36,193 nucleotides of DNA from Chloroflexota bacterium (GTDB lineage Bacteria; Chloroflexota; Dehalococcoidia; Lucifugimonadales; JADFKI01). Under the pieces are notes generated by a model. It was not told the DNA's origin and did not search any database. It was given only the letters and a program-made list of their open reading frames with translations. Of this stretch, positions 3,440 to 29,815 are shown piece by piece (position 1 is the first letter of the stretch; each line of letters opens with the position of its first letter). The translations under genes and the position numbers were made by a program. Location of the stretch: positions 70,768 through 106,960 of the forward strand of contig VXNZ01000049.1 of NCBI GenBank assembly GCA_009840355.1, read 5' to 3'.

Positions 3440-5256
3440 TTAACTTACATTCTCATCCCAGTCTGTGGGGCCGTCATCGTATTCGTCGATGGTTTCACCA
3501 AGCCAAAACATGCCATCTTCACGAGTTACATTCTTCCCCATGACCGCCTCGATGCTTTTGATGAGTTCCTCGGCGCGTCCTGCGAAAAACCCGTTGAAGT
3601 CGTCCGCGCGCAATGTCGTTGCAGGGATGCGATGGGATGCCAATATCTTGTCCATATCGGCAACTGTTATCTTTGCTTTTCGTTCTATTGTAGGCAGATA
3701 CTCAGAAGGTGCCCTTCCACCAATGCTCCGATTGCAGCTTGCAGAGAGAGCAGTCTTGTTAACGATGCTATTGAATATGTTGCGGTCTATTCCATTCCGG
3801 TTACACCACAATTGCGGAAATATATGGTGTATGTCAATGTTGTCATCGAAGAAGGTCTGAGCCTCAACAGGTTCACCGCTGCAAAAGTCGCGACTGCCAT
3901 CCCGCATGAGCAAAGCGTGGATTCCTTTGTATGCTGCGCTATTGCGAGTCCGTAGAGTAAGTAGGCGGTTCGCTTGGAAGTTCGCGTCTTGAATAGTAGA
4001 GGGCATTTCTGCCCCATCGCCTTTCACCCAACCTGAAACTTCAGGAAGGTCGCGGGCAAACAGTGTTTCACCTGCGCCACCGTAAATCTCCCCCAATACG
4101 CCACACCAATACCAGCGCGCAATCTTTTGGCGAGCGCCTTCCGTATCAGCAACATTTCCCAAATCTGCCAAAATTGTAGCTAGGGGAACAAGTTGGGTCT
4201 GGTATGGCAAATCGCTCGCTTTGAAAATCTTCTGCCCATGCAGAAATCGCGCTGCCTTTTTGAATCCATCTTCTACCTTGTCCGCCCAAGCCTCGTATTC
4301 AGCAGCACTCAGCCGAAGGATGTCTCTTCGCCTGCAACTAACCGCTCCGCCTTTGACTTTGGTCGCAATCAGCGTGAGAGCTTGTAAGAAAAGCGTGCTT
4401 TCCATCCGGCGTAGGACAGGATGAGCGTTTTTCAGGCGACTTTCTCTTTCAGCCCAGTCCTCACGAAGTTGGAAGTTGTCAGCCGCGAAGGATGCGGTCA
4501 GCAGTTCAAATACCGTGAGGGTGACCCCTCCCGTGTTCACCTTCTCAAAGACGATGCAGACAGCTTCCTTCGATGTCTCTTTATCAAGTTCAATTACAGG
4601 GACTTGGTATTGTTTGAAGCCATCGATGACCTGCTCCTCAAATTTGTCCCATAGATCTGATTTACAAGAGTCGTGATTCCAATATTTATTGTAGCCACGC
4701 CTCCACTGCGAAGAGTTAAAGAGGTGTCTGATAGGAAACATGTCATTAGCATATTCCTGTTCAGACGTAGAAAGGTTGGTAATGTCCTCCCCTCGGAATG
4801 TCCTCACTACACGATCTTCGGGAACTGACAGAACGGCGTCCTCTCTATCAGCGTCATCAGAGACGCACTTCTCCATGTCCAAGTAATACCAGCGCCGGAT
4901 TTTGCGCCCTCTGGTATCTTTCGTCTCTACTGGTTTTCCTGCCTTCAAAGATTGGAAGAGTGAAGTCAACCGTTGCTGACCATCTAGCACAAGGACGTCT
5001 GGTTTTACATTCCGAATTGCCTCATCGGCACTTCTATCGGGCGTGGCTTGAAACTGACATCAGGCCCACCAGTTTCCAGCGTCATTACAGCACCGATGGG
5101 AAACGACAGTGAAACGCTGGCTATCAGGTCTCGGATGTGATGGTCATCTCACACCCAGCCACGCTGGAAATCAGGGAGTTGAGTTTTCCCGTTGCTAACG
5201 TTATTCAGCATATCTTCTATGCGAAGTTTGGTACTGTCGAAACTTGCGACATTCAT
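3440..5256 (-). pseudogene. Broken DUF262/DUF1524 (GmrSD-type) restriction-like gene
   Basis: The original gene starts at an ATG at 5254-5256 with GAGG 7 bases upstream and reads MNVASFDSTKL… to LPDFQRGWV. An in-frame TGA at 5149-5151 then stands where the family has Trp (RGWVW). Reading past it gives DDHHIRDLIASVSLSFPIGA, which is clearly still the DUF262 domain. About 40 codons later, near 5029-5032, one base is missing, and the -1 shift moves the reading into the frame carrying LDGQQRLTSL and everything after. From there an uninterrupted 516-codon frame runs to 3440. It includes the C-terminal DUF1524 HNH-like motif (DIHHIFP…NR…N). GmrSD proteins cut glucosylated hydroxymethylcytosine DNA as type IV restriction enzymes; this copy cannot make the full protein unless both changes are sequence errors. 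Re-initiation at a GTG at 4990 would give only a truncated protein. Confidence 0.85.
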
Positions 5257-20551: not shown

Positions 20552-21286
20552 TTGCTGGCAAATCCTCAAATCATCGTGGATTTGCTGGACAGCGATCCAG
20601 CCATCTTGGAGATGGTGCGCTCTCGCGTACTTACTCCCGAACTGCTGGCACTGCCGGAATTGCACGCGCAGTTAGCGGCTGAAGTGCGCGAATTCGCAGC
20701 TGAGATGCGCGAGTTCGCCGCGAAGACTGACGCTCGCCTGAGTAAAGTGGAGGATGAAATCGTCGTAATGCGCGGTGATATAGACAGGATGAGCGGCAAG
20801 ATAGACAGGACGGAATCGAGCGTTGGACACCTGAAAGGCTTCTTTGTAGAAACCACCGCGCGAAACAAGGAAGATTCCATCGCTCTTCAGGTAGGTGAAC
20901 AGAATGGATTGAGATTTCTGTTTCACACGCTCCAACCCGTTCGCAGAAGTGAACGGCGGACATTCATGCAGGTTATGCGAAATGACGAGCTGCCGCCTCC
21001 CGGATTGAGCGATGGCGAAATCGTAAGCTTCGTACAAGCCGACCACATTATATCCATAGACGACAGCAGCAGCGGCAAAACATACATCGCGATAGAGGCT
21101 TCGTACGTAGGCGACACCCGGGGCGCACAACGCGCCGTACGAAACGCGAATATTATCAATGTGCTGACTGGCGCGAACTCATACGCAGTTGTAGCCGGAT
21201 GCCATTCTACCGACGGGCTTTTTGAAATGGCGGAGCGCGGCGAAGTAATCTGGCATCTAGTACCAGTGGATGAATTGAACGCATAA
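20552..21286 (+). CDS. Coiled-coil protein with PD-(D/E)XK-nuclease-like C-terminus
   Basis: 244 residues from a TTG. The frame is open back to 20507 without an ATG or GTG, and the upstream residues (TTEDIRSAL) look like natural protein, so the true start may be earlier and is uncertain. Residues about 37-100 are a coiled coil (LAAEVREFAAEMREFAAKTDARLSKVEDE…). The C-terminal half contains ADHIISIDD followed by YIAIEAS and a long helix with RAVRNANIINVLTG, then strands (YAVVAGC, EVIWHLVP). The D…x…E-A-S spacing resembles the catalytic core of DUF3782-type PD-(D/E)XK proteins, which are abundant in filamentous bacteria and Chloroflexota. No enzymatic activity can be claimed. It is alone between divergent uvrB and the CoxE fragment. 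Confidence 0.72.
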   Translation: MLANPQIIVDLLDSDPAILEMVRSRVLTPELLALPELHAQLAAEVREFAAEMREFAAKTDARLSKVEDEIVVMRGDIDRMSGKIDRTESSVGHLKGFFVETTARNKEDSIALQVGEQNGLRFLFHTLQPVRRSERRTFMQVMRNDELPPPGLSDGEIVSFVQADHIISIDDSSSGKTYIAIEASYVGDTRGAQRAVRNANIINVLTGANSYAVVAGCHSTDGLFEMAERGEVIWHLVPVDELNA

Positions 21287-23831: not shown

Positions 23832-23902
23832 GATTGGATAATAGTGGGAGTTTGAGTTACTGTTGATACGGAGCCGACTTGTCGCCGACATGAGGAGTAT
23901 CT

Positions 23903-25669
23903 TTGGCATCAGAGAACGCGAATGACACCATACTCTACGAGCCGGAAGAGTCTTGTCCACCTCTAACTGCTGCTATCACAGGATTCCAACTAGCGGTAGT
24001 CATGATAGCGTTAGTCGTAGTCCCAGTAGTAATTATAGTACGCACAGCAGGGCTACCGCACGAATACCTAAGGTGGACTGTATTCGCCTCATTGATCGTC
24101 TGCGGTATTGCTACGATTTTCAATTCCCTTAGACTTGGGCGTTTCGGCACTGGGCATGTTCTGGTAATAGGAACTGCCGAGCCCGCAATCGCCATCTGCA
24201 TAACGGCTCTGATGCAGGGCGGGCCTGTGATGATGGCAACGCTGGTTGTCCTGTCATCCGTGCTGAAATTCTTCGTCGCTGCGCGACTCTCGCTGTTCCG
24301 CCGCATAATCACCCCCGTGGTGTCCGGCACGGTGCTCATGCTGATAGCGGCGACCGTGATTCTGGCGGTATTCGGGATACTGACGGAAGTGCCTCCCGGA
24401 AAGTCCGTATCGCCCATAGCCGCTCCCATTGCTGCTGTCGTTACTCTGGCGGTGATAGCCTTTATGCTTCTGCGAGCTCCCCGCCCGTTACAGATATGGT
24501 CGCCGCTGATAGGCATCGTGATTGGCAGCCTAGTCAGTCTGCCATTCGGTCTGTATGACATTGACCTTGTGCAGAGAGTGAGTTGGTTCGGGGGTGGATT
24601 TTCCCCTGAGGTCCGGAGTGTCTGGCCCGGATTCGACTTTACTCCTGGGCTCAAGTTCTGGGCGCTTCTCCCCGCGTTTCTGCTGATAATGGTCATCACA
24701 TCGTTCAAGGCGGTTGCCGATACAAGCGCAATCCAGCGCGTTTCCAGGCGTCAGCCGCGCGCCACCGACTTCAGAGTCATCCAGGGCGGACTCCATATAA
24801 ACGCTCTGAGCAACCTGGCGTCAGGGCTGGCGGGGACTGTCCCCACGATGACCGCTTCCCCCAGCGTGGCGATGGTCAGTCTCACGAGGATCGCATCACG
24901 TAGCGCGGGAGTATGGGCCGGCGCCATATTCATCGCTATGGCCATGGTGCCGAAGACGACTGCGCTGCTGATAGCCGTACCGTCTCCCGTGGCTGCAGCG
25001 TACATAATGATAATAATGGGGCTGGTGTTCATAGAGGGCGTGCAGACCGTAACCCAGGATGGGATAGACCATAGAAAGGCGATAGTGGTGGCAGTATCTT
25101 TCTGGGTCGGCATGGGCTTCCAGAACCAGGCCATCTTCGCGGACCTGCTTACCGGTACCTTGGACGCTCTGCTGAGCAACAGCGTTACCTCCGGTGGACT
25201 TGCCGCCGCGCTGCTGATTGGATTCATAGAGCTGACATCGGCGAGACGCAAGCGGCTGGAAGTTGACCTTGATCAGTCTTCAATGCCGGAAATCGACCGC
25301 TTTATGCAAGATTTCGCAGCGGACAAGCATTGGGACGAAGCATCTACGGAGAGTCTGCGCGCCATCGGCGAAGAGACGCTCTCGATTATGGTGCACGAGG
25401 AAGAGGCGGACGAAACGGGCAAGCAGCGGCGGCTCATCATCAACGCGCAGGTTGACGACGATGTGGCGGATCTGGAGTTCCTGTCAGCGGCGTACGATGT
25501 GGAAAATCTGGAAGATAGGCTTGCGTACCTGAACGACGAGCCCCAAGTCTTGGACGCGATCGAGGTATCGTACCGCCTGCTGCGTTATTACGCCAAATCT
25601 GTCCGCCACCAAAAGTTCCACGACATTGATGTAATCACCGTGCAAGTGGAAGGCGCAAGGGCGCGGTGA
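23903..25669 (+). CDS. NCS2-family nucleobase permease with C-terminal cytoplasmic domain
   Basis: 588 residues from a TTG with GAGGAG 5 bases upstream. Residues about 20-445 form 12-14 membrane helices of the nucleobase-cation symporter 2 family (uracil/xanthine permeases). Family marks are the long segment NALSNLASGLAGTVPTMTASPSVAMVSLTRIASR and the later QTVTQDGIDHRKAIVVAVSFWVGMG. It probably imports a purine or pyrimidine, or a related oxidised base. Residues about 450-588 are an added soluble domain: a helix (SLRAIGEETLSIMVHEEE), two strands (RRLIINAQV, VADLEFLSAAY), an acidic loop, a helix (EVSYRLLRYYAKSVRH) and a last strand (VITVQVE). The order resembles a GHKL-type ATPase fold (anti-sigma kinase-like), but the N-box Asn and the glycine-rich nucleotide loop are absent. 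Plain NCS2 permeases end near 430-480. A promoter and a long leader precede it. Confidence 0.88.
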   Translation: MASENANDTILYEPEESCPPLTAAITGFQLAVVMIALVVVPVVIIVRTAGLPHEYLRWTVFASLIVCGIATIFNSLRLGRFGTGHVLVIGTAEPAIAICITALMQGGPVMMATLVVLSSVLKFFVAARLSLFRRIITPVVSGTVLMLIAATVILAVFGILTEVPPGKSVSPIAAPIAAVVTLAVIAFMLLRAPRPLQIWSPLIGIVIGSLVSLPFGLYDIDLVQRVSWFGGGFSPEVRSVWPGFDFTPGLKFWALLPAFLLIMVITSFKAVADTSAIQRVSRRQPRATDFRVIQGGLHINALSNLASGLAGTVPTMTASPSVAMVSLTRIASRSAGVWAGAIFIAMAMVPKTTALLIAVPSPVAAAYIMIIMGLVFIEGVQTVTQDGIDHRKAIVVAVSFWVGMGFQNQAIFADLLTGTLDALLSNSVTSGGLAAALLIGFIELTSARRKRLEVDLDQSSMPEIDRFMQDFAADKHWDEASTESLRAIGEETLSIMVHEEEADETGKQRRLIINAQVDDDVADLEFLSAAYDVENLEDRLAYLNDEPQVLDAIEVSYRLLRYYAKSVRHQKFHDIDVITVQVEGARAR

Positions 25670-27871: not shown

Positions 27872-29815
27872 ATGAATGTCGACAATATACTATCGTCTAT
27901 TGATCAAGGGTTCATTCTGCTTCCCGTCTTCCAAAGAGGATATGTCTGGAATCGCAATCAAGTTCGCTTCCTGATGGACTCGCTATACCACAAATATCCT
28001 GTAGGCAGTTTGCTCATGTGGCAAGCGCACTCTGAAAGTGTCGATAATCGAGGAGATGTTCCTGCTGCGGCCTCCCCGGTTAAACTGATCTTGGACGGAC
28101 AGCAGCGCATAACTACACTATATGGCATTATCAAGGGTAAGCAGCCGCCTTTTTTTGAAGGCAACTCCAACACATTCACCGGTCTGTATTTTAACCTAGA
28201 AACTGAAGTGTTCGAGTTCTACGCTCCCTCTCGTATGAACAATAACCCGTTCTGGGTGAATGTCACCGAACTGATGCAAAACGGCATTGGTCCTATGGTG
28301 GATAACATCTTTCAGAATGAAAGACTGAAAGAGCAGGCACAAACATACGTGAACAGGTTGAATGCAGTTACCACAATTGGCTCGATAGACCTATACGAAG
28401 ACATAGTGTCAGAATCTGACGTGGATGTAGTAGTGGACATATTCAACCGCATCAACAGCGGCGGCACGAAATTGTCGCAAGCCGACTTAGCATTAGCCAA
28501 GATTTGCACGATTTGGCCTGAAGCTCGTGACGAACTGAAACTACGGTTAGCTAAATGGAAGGAAGCAGGGTTTCATTTCAAACTGGAATGGCTGCTCAGG
28601 TGCTTGAACGCTCTGGTAACTGGAGAAGCCAGATTCTCGGAGATAACCGACAAAAGCGCAGATGAAATTAACGCAGGGTTGTCCAAAACCGAGAAACACA
28701 TTGATTACTTGCTAAATCTCATATCGTCTCGACTTGGACTCGACCACACACGAGTTCTTGCTGGACCGTATGCGTTTCCGGTGATGACAAGATACTTGGA
28801 GCAGCGAGGAGGTCATCTGACGGATTATAAGGAGGCAAATAAACTGCTGTTCTGGTACATCCATACATTCCTGTGGGGACGGTACTCAGGATCCACGGAA
28901 TCTGCCTTAGGTCAAGACCTCAACGCAATAGAAGATACCGATACGGGATTGGATAATCTCATAGAGAATCTGCGTATTATTCGCGGACATTTGCGGATTG
29001 CGCCCGACGACTTCTCAGCATCTACCATAGGCGCACGCTTCTATCCGATGCTATACATGCTTACGCGCGTGAACCATGCAAGAGACTGGGGAACAGGCAA
29101 TGAACTATCCAATGCGATGCTTGGAAAGAGCACTGGCCTTGAAATGCACCACATATTCCCTAAGTCGAGGCTGTATGAACGAGGCTACTCTCGAAATGAG
29201 GTCAACGCGCTCGCCAATTTCACATTTCTAACGAAAGAGACGAACCTTGAGGTGTCTAACAAGTATCCTGAGAAATACATTCCAGAGTATGCCGAAAAGC
29301 ATCCCGGCGCAGTAGAATCGCACTGGATACCTATGGATGGCGAGCTTCATCGGATTGATAGATACCAAGATTTTCTGGAGGCAAGGCGGAGGTTGTTGGC
29401 GGAGGCTACGAATAAATTCTTGGACAATCTCCTAGAAAGCGCTGTCTCACTCCCAACACCCATAGGAGAAATGTTATCAGACATAGGCAGCCTACCGGGC
29501 GGTGTGGTCAGCGACGAGGAACAACGACAACTGGAGAATGTGAATGGGCGAGTGGTTGCGATGGGATTGTCCGAAGGTGAATTCAGTTACGAGTTAATTA
29601 ACGAACGCACTGATCAACCTATGGCAATGATAGATTTGGCATGGCCTGATGGGTTGCAGGCGGGATTGAGCCAACCTGTGGCGCTACTCATTGATGAAGA
29701 CACACCAGTTGAGACAATTGTCAGTCAAGCGGGATTCCGAATCTATACTGACGTTGAATCGCTGATGGACTATGTCTCGCAAGACGTGCTGGTGCTTGAT
29801 GTTGCTGCGGACTAA
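27872..29815 (+). CDS. DUF262/DUF1524 protein, GmrSD-type modification-dependent nuclease
   Basis: 647 residues, intact. The N-terminal DUF262 (GmrS-like) domain has LPVFQRGYVW at 17-26 and the DGQQR motif at 75-79, thought to bind NTP; FNRINSGGTKLS lies further on. The DUF1524 (GmrD-like) HNH-type nuclease motif H426-H427-IFP is followed by the Asn residues of NALANFTFLTKETNLEVSNK. About 90 C-terminal residues are an extra domain (MAMIDLAWPDGLQ…VALLIDED…GFRIYTDVESLMDYV), a beta-alpha module I cannot name. GmrSD cuts DNA with modified cytosines, protecting against phage, and single-chain fusions are the usual form. AAGGA precedes the ATG by 10-11 bases. No methylase or other defence gene adjoins it. 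Base composition is lower in GC than that of the neighbours, suggesting transfer. Confidence 0.9.
   Translation: MNVDNILSSIDQGFILLPVFQRGYVWNRNQVRFLMDSLYHKYPVGSLLMWQAHSESVDNRGDVPAAASPVKLILDGQQRITTLYGIIKGKQPPFFEGNSNTFTGLYFNLETEVFEFYAPSRMNNNPFWVNVTELMQNGIGPMVDNIFQNERLKEQAQTYVNRLNAVTTIGSIDLYEDIVSESDVDVVVDIFNRINSGGTKLSQADLALAKICTIWPEARDELKLRLAKWKEAGFHFKLEWLLRCLNALVTGEARFSEITDKSADEINAGLSKTEKHIDYLLNLISSRLGLDHTRVLAGPYAFPVMTRYLEQRGGHLTDYKEANKLLFWYIHTFLWGRYSGSTESALGQDLNAIEDTDTGLDNLIENLRIIRGHLRIAPDDFSASTIGARFYPMLYMLTRVNHARDWGTGNELSNAMLGKSTGLEMHHIFPKSRLYERGYSRNEVNALANFTFLTKETNLEVSNKYPEKYIPEYAEKHPGAVESHWIPMDGELHRIDRYQDFLEARRRLLAEATNKFLDNLLESAVSLPTPIGEMLSDIGSLPGGVVSDEEQRQLENVNGRVVAMGLSEGEFSYELINERTDQPMAMIDLAWPDGLQAGLSQPVALLIDEDTPVETIVSQAGFRIYTDVESLMDYVSQDVLVLDVAAD

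Follow-up and report, generated by a model that had tools for sequence, protein, structure and literature searches.

An NCS2-fold carrier joined to an RsbW-fold domain with a degenerate ATP site in uncultured Chloroflexota

The membrane protein described here is closest to the carriers of the NCS2/NAT/SLC23 family, which include UapA, UraA, XanQ and SVCT1. For UapA, a published analysis terms Q85, E356, D388 and N409 absolutely conserved and irreplaceable, and it gives Q408 as a substrate contact and E356, in TM8, as the substrate-binding Glu (PMC3405029). Carriers of the SLC26/SulP family have the same 7+7 membrane fold and bear a regulatory STAS domain at the C-terminus (PMC6497670). STAS domains belong to the RsbV side of the partner-switch repertoire; the kinase side is represented by RsbW, SpoIIAB and UsfX (HATPase_c_2, PF13581).

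In a stretch of 36,193 nucleotides from a Chloroflexota bacterium (the window; contig VXNZ01000049.1, positions 70,768 to 106,960), one gene brings these two worlds together. Its product has in common with NCS2 proteins the membrane fold, the Pfam family, the Q85-type residue and the Thr that ends the NAT motif, but the positions of E356, D388, Q408 and N409 are changed, and a further folded tail of 140 residues is unmatched in the solved NCS2 proteins that we found. With RsbW, SpoIIAB and UsfX, this tail has in common a predicted whole-domain fold, a weak but significant profile similarity and the N-box Glu; unlike them, it lacks the N-box Asn, the DxG Asp, the glycine loop and a Pfam match, and it is membrane-anchored. 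The arrangement recalls SLC26/SulP, in which the same membrane fold also carries a cytosolic C-terminal domain of the partner-switch repertoire, except that the domain here appears to come from the kinase side: the tail folds as RsbW and has no STAS match in Pfam. We found no published description of such a permease-RsbW fusion in the open-access literature.

The fusion gene and its membrane half

The gene begins with a TTG codon and is laid out as follows (window coordinates, all on the + strand):

23892..23897, +, GAGGAG, likely ribosome-binding site, 5 nt upstream of the TTG start (direct reading)
23903-25669, +, permease-tail fusion ORF, 588 aa, intact, without internal stop
23903..25240, +, permease part, residues 1-446, 14-helix NCS2/UraA-fold (SLC23-type) carrier (Pfam PF00860, model, UapA 5i6c)
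25241..25669, +, C-terminal RsbW/SpoIIAB-fold domain, residues 447-588 plus stop, with degenerate ATP site (model m433057367fa3, RsbW 6m37, hhalign)

The original prediction, made from the sequence alone, had read this gene as an NCS2 permease fused to a degenerate GHKL-like domain. The fusion is real, as 80 distinct full-length relatives carry the tail, and a frameshift or joined-genes artefact can be ruled out because dozens of genomes have the identical fusion in an open frame. The domain boundary had also been placed correctly at residue 450, with the first tail strand lying at 450-455 in the full-length model (pLDDT 86.8, pTM 0.83). The Pfam model Xan_ur_permease (PF00860) matches residues 24-406 (E 4.6e-35, 121.5 bits against a cut-off of 27), and the permease part of the model superposes on UapA (5i6c) with Z 43.1 and 2.7 Å over 424 residues and on UraA with Z 39.9. 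In other words, the membrane half has the UraA-type 14-helix fold of the NCS2/NAT family. The curated NCBIfam models (pbuX, ncs2, uracil permease) give at best 169.6 bits, far under their cut-off of 414, and the final 141 residues match zero Pfam families even at E 5, PF13581 and STAS included.

Does the membrane half also retain the residues by which NCS2 carriers recognize nucleobases? The following codons are those at issue:

24707..24709, +, codon of K269, at the UapA E356 position (K in 42, E in 19 and Q in 16 of 80)
24800..24802, +, codon of N300, at the UapA D388 position (N in 25 and D in 20 of 80)
24860..24865, +, codons of P320-S321, at the UapA Q408-N409 positions (NAT signature)

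We compared the 80 distinct full-length tail-bearing members with 30 tail-less Chloroflexota NCS2 proteins. Among the latter, E/D/E/N at the positions of E356, D388, Q408 and N409 is kept in 29. The tail clade keeps Q at the Q85 position of TM1 in 75/80, but E at the E356 position in 19/80, D at the D388 position in 20/80 and N at the N409 position in 1/80, the last being replaced mostly by S (42) or T (26). The NAT signature of TM10, [Q/E/P]-N-x-G-x4-T-[R/K/G], is likewise not conserved in these 80 sequences: the Q408 position holds S in 38, G in 15, T in 12 and P in 4 (P also here), with neither Q nor E among the residues listed, and G is found at the G411 position in 6/80, although the T that ends the motif is present in 80/80. 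The designation as an NCS2 permease thus stands for fold and Pfam family and falls for the substrate signature. Because three of the four UapA-essential residues are not conserved across the 80 relatives, the nucleobase uptake that had been proposed is not supported and appears doubtful. We infer from these substitutions either a substrate other than a nucleobase or a receptor role, and the losses may even mean that transport has been abandoned altogether.

An RsbW-type tail without the classical ATP site

The tail had been proposed to follow the order of elements of an anti-sigma or histidine-kinase type ATPase, and structure prediction, fold comparison and profile-profile matching all bear this reading out. 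An AlphaFold2 model of the tail (m433057367fa3, built with 47 aligned tails; pLDDT 84.3, pTM 0.80) runs strand, helix, helix, two strands, lid helix, helix, two strands, which is the order of RsbW and SpoIIAB, and the EETLSIM helix singled out earlier corresponds to the N-box helix. Foldseek returned B. subtilis RsbW (6m37) at the top (E 3.4e-7), followed by SpoIIAB and UsfX. In VIA-align, the tail scored Z 16.6 against RsbW (1.7 Å, 114 residues aligned), Z 15.4 against SpoIIAB and about Z 8 and below against histidine kinases. A STAS domain or a plain helical tail, either of which would have spoken against the proposal, is rejected by the predicted fold, as is PAS; RsbW is the best match. At the sequence level, hhalign of the tails against 30 RsbW-type proteins gave 94% probability and E 1.1e-7 (an E value for one comparison), and the tail profile matched a genuine SpoIIE-RsbW protein (the RsbW domain L217 of genome G225) with E 7.5e-4. 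A search of PDB sequences with the tail profile found nothing, so the link to RsbW rests on fold and profile-profile evidence. This weak but significant similarity supports homology of the tail to RsbW/SpoIIAB (HATPase_c_2).

What, then, has become of the ATP site? Its former motifs map as follows:

25370..25387, +, N-box: E490, E491 and I495, the last standing where the Mg-binding Asn would be (E491 in 80/80; N at the Asn place in 1/80)
25475..25516, +, site of the lost DxG box with the beginning of the ATP lid (invariant E525 and N535, D538 in 78/80, S528 in place of Asp)
25568..25570, +, S556, invariant, at the place of the RsbW glycine loop (GGLG), from the alignment to RsbW
25607..25639, +, last beta hairpin (H569 and D576 invariant, T579 in 72/80)

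Among the GHKL motifs, the N-box Glu is present, and the N-box Asn, the DxGxG Asp and the GxGxG loop are absent. Two of these absences, those of the N-box Asn and the glycine loop, had been noticed from the sequence and are confirmed: I495 occupies the first place, and EVSYRLL stands where RsbW-type proteins have GGLGIHLV. Across the tail clade, position 528 is A, T, G, V or S, and the glycine loop (the GxGxG lid loop) is replaced by E-[ILV]-S-[FL]-R-L-L. With the Asn, the Asp and the loop lost, classical ATP binding by the tail is unlikely. The sole member with an N-box Asn (EETLTN) is L048 (G259:C5), a site that is possibly ancestral or reverted.

The tail is nonetheless no decaying relic. 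E491, E525, N535, S556, H569 and D576 are invariant across the 80 distinct full-length members, and six invariant polar residues argue against mere decay, as do dN/dS values of 0.10-0.27 for the tail in three pairs (0.09-0.13 for the membrane part), which indicate purifying selection. The mean majority-residue fraction among 55 relatives is 0.61 for the tail versus 0.62 for the permease part. From these sequence comparisons, the domain appears to be maintained, though not as a classical ATPase.

Spread, copy number and neighbouring genes

A search for the same fusion in other genomes found the tail in 29 of the 301 Chloroflexota genomes sampled, in six families and at least two classes (families f1 and f19 of the same class as the window's genome; f31, f42, f45 and f80 outside it). 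Within the family to which the window's genome belongs, it is present in 5/5 genomes of the same genus and in 0/3 from other genera. Positive genomes mostly hold 3-9 copies of tail-bearing permeases. The window's genome has eight loci, two of them decayed, and no NCS2 permease was found in it without the tail; the decayed copies (L096 on G000:C3 and L101 on G000:C25) have several stop codons, yet their tail reading frames are open. Four tail-bearing permeases stand in tandem at L103:6408-13940 (G004:C2), suggesting recent local duplication. Orthologues at 77-87% identity are found in an SAR202 cluster bacterium (Chloroflexota) and a Chloroflexi MAG. Outside the phylum, matches occur only in single Planctomycetes and gammaproteobacterial MAGs (G309, G310, G311), which may be transfers or binning errors; scans of the respective phyla gave 1/199 genomes for the Planctomycetes MAG (L013) and 1/299 for the gammaproteobacterial MAG (L014), the single match each time being the centre genome itself. 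No free-standing tail was found in nine carrier genomes, in which the matches are permease genes or decayed remnants, with one weak exception that is a real RsbW domain. In the tree, a single branch separates the 80 tail-bearing permeases from the 30 tail-less Chloroflexota NCS2 proteins (SH-aLRT 99); the position of the tail clade relative to UapA is unsure because of long branches.

Neighbouring genes yielded no common theme or substrate clue across the copies, and synteny holds at the orthologue level only. For example, the window's copy lies in the order uvrB, coxE-like VWA gene, permease, TPP enzyme, which is kept in close relatives. At L095:7670-13132 (G000:C4), another tail-bearing permease follows znuB by 16 bp as the last gene of a zinc/manganese ABC operon of znuA-znuC-znuB type. 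This copy adjoins the ABC-permease gene in G001 (L106) and G002 (L020) as well, and the 16-bp spacing to a znuACB-type operon recurs in three genomes of the genus. The window additionally encodes two GmrSD_N-domain proteins of restriction type (3440-4990, -, and 27872-29815, +) and, between uvrB and a lipoprotein-like gene, a 244-aa protein (20552-21286, +) that matches no Pfam family and whose N-terminal part is coiled-coil-like.

What the tail might do for the carrier

The explanation that we favour, and hold with moderate confidence, is that of a re-specialised NCS2/SLC23-fold carrier whose RsbW-fold module serves regulation or dimerisation independently of nucleotides. The elements from which it is assembled (the fusion, the two folds, the conservation, the copy number and the loss of ATP motifs and nucleobase signature) are established computationally, by sequence comparison and modelling. 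The carrier would have taken its C-terminal cytosolic domain from an anti-sigma kinase of the RsbW/SpoIIAB type and would move or bind a substrate other than a nucleobase; about half of the copies have Lys at the E356 position, which would suit an acidic substrate, and separate copies would handle separate substrates. By analogy with UapA and UraA, the carrier would work as a homodimer. The tail would need no ATP, and as a module for dimerisation and regulation it would stabilise or gate the carrier. The six invariant residues would then form a re-used pocket or interface for control. In SLC26, which shares the membrane fold, a regulatory STAS domain at the same place plays such a part (PMC6497670).

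Could the protein instead be a receptor that signals through partner switching? The protein would then be a membrane receptor, or carrier and receptor at once, whose pseudo-RsbW tail relays the ligand state to an RsbV-type STAS protein, the titration of RsbV in the cell's partner-switch module altering gene expression; we think this unlikely, though it has several attractions. RsbW binds RsbV, the tail keeps the fold while the kinase residues are lost, and a lost transport signature would fit a receptor. Additionally, 31/37 tail-positive genomes and 0/79 tail-negative ones have, near a STAS gene, an RsbW of the window genome's own type (matching that genome's RsbW at E at most 1e-30). In relatives, two loci read from end to end have the order RsbV, response regulator-PP2C, RsbW, periplasmic binding protein. 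The Fisher p of 1.6e-22 for this co-occurrence ignores kinship, however, which the association follows, and common ancestry or lifestyle could explain it. The linked STAS or PP2C genes that a signalling role led one to look for did not materialise, in that no STAS, PP2C or RsbW gene adjoins any permease locus examined. The genome's own RsbV-RsbW pair (G000:C39; RsbV L102:5350-5688, RsbW L102:6108-6539) is unlinked to the permeases, and the response regulator-PP2C gene between them (within L102:5350-6539), intact in the relatives L199 and L202, has shrunk to a short remnant. Moreover, G001 and G002, of the same genus, have 9 and 6 permease copies and no own-type RsbW in their incomplete assemblies. 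In its most developed form, which we likewise regard as improbable, the idea is one of transporter-derived receptors: a pseudo-permease would sense an external solute and its pseudo-RsbW tail would sequester or release an RsbV-type STAS protein, giving a kinase-dead, membrane-anchored partner-switch arm, and each cell would have several such sensors that differ in specificity. As a separate matter, derivation of the tail from the co-occurring RsbW type was considered and rejected, as tail-profile scores do not set that type apart.

A further possibility, to which we give only a small share of our confidence, is that the tail binds a small ligand, either a nucleotide in a non-classical manner or another metabolite, and so gates transport allosterically. 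The invariance of the six residues in all 80 sequences would fit such a site, as would T579, which is kept in 72/80 and lies in the last strand at the place of the Thr that contacts adenine in GHKL proteins; without the Mg-binding Asn of the N-box, the Asp of DxG and the glycine loop, however, the classical mode is unlikely, and the remaining conserved residues could equally serve an interface. That the tail is a folding or assembly handle only, with no regulatory role, seems very unlikely, for although the need to dimerise could by itself keep an RsbW-type surface conserved, a scaffold would not call for six invariant polar residues in the former active-site motifs.

The fusion represents a second, independent route by which a UraA-fold carrier gained a cytosolic partner-switch domain: SLC26 carries the STAS domain, the substrate in partner switching, and this clade the kinase RsbW with a dismantled active site. 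Since the substrate residues taken as diagnostic of NCS2 are changed, the automatic annotation of these proteins as xanthine or uracil permeases is probably wrong, an error that seems to touch scores of genes in uncultured Chloroflexota. Should the tail signal, these organisms would possess a receptor derived from a transporter and coupled to partner switching.
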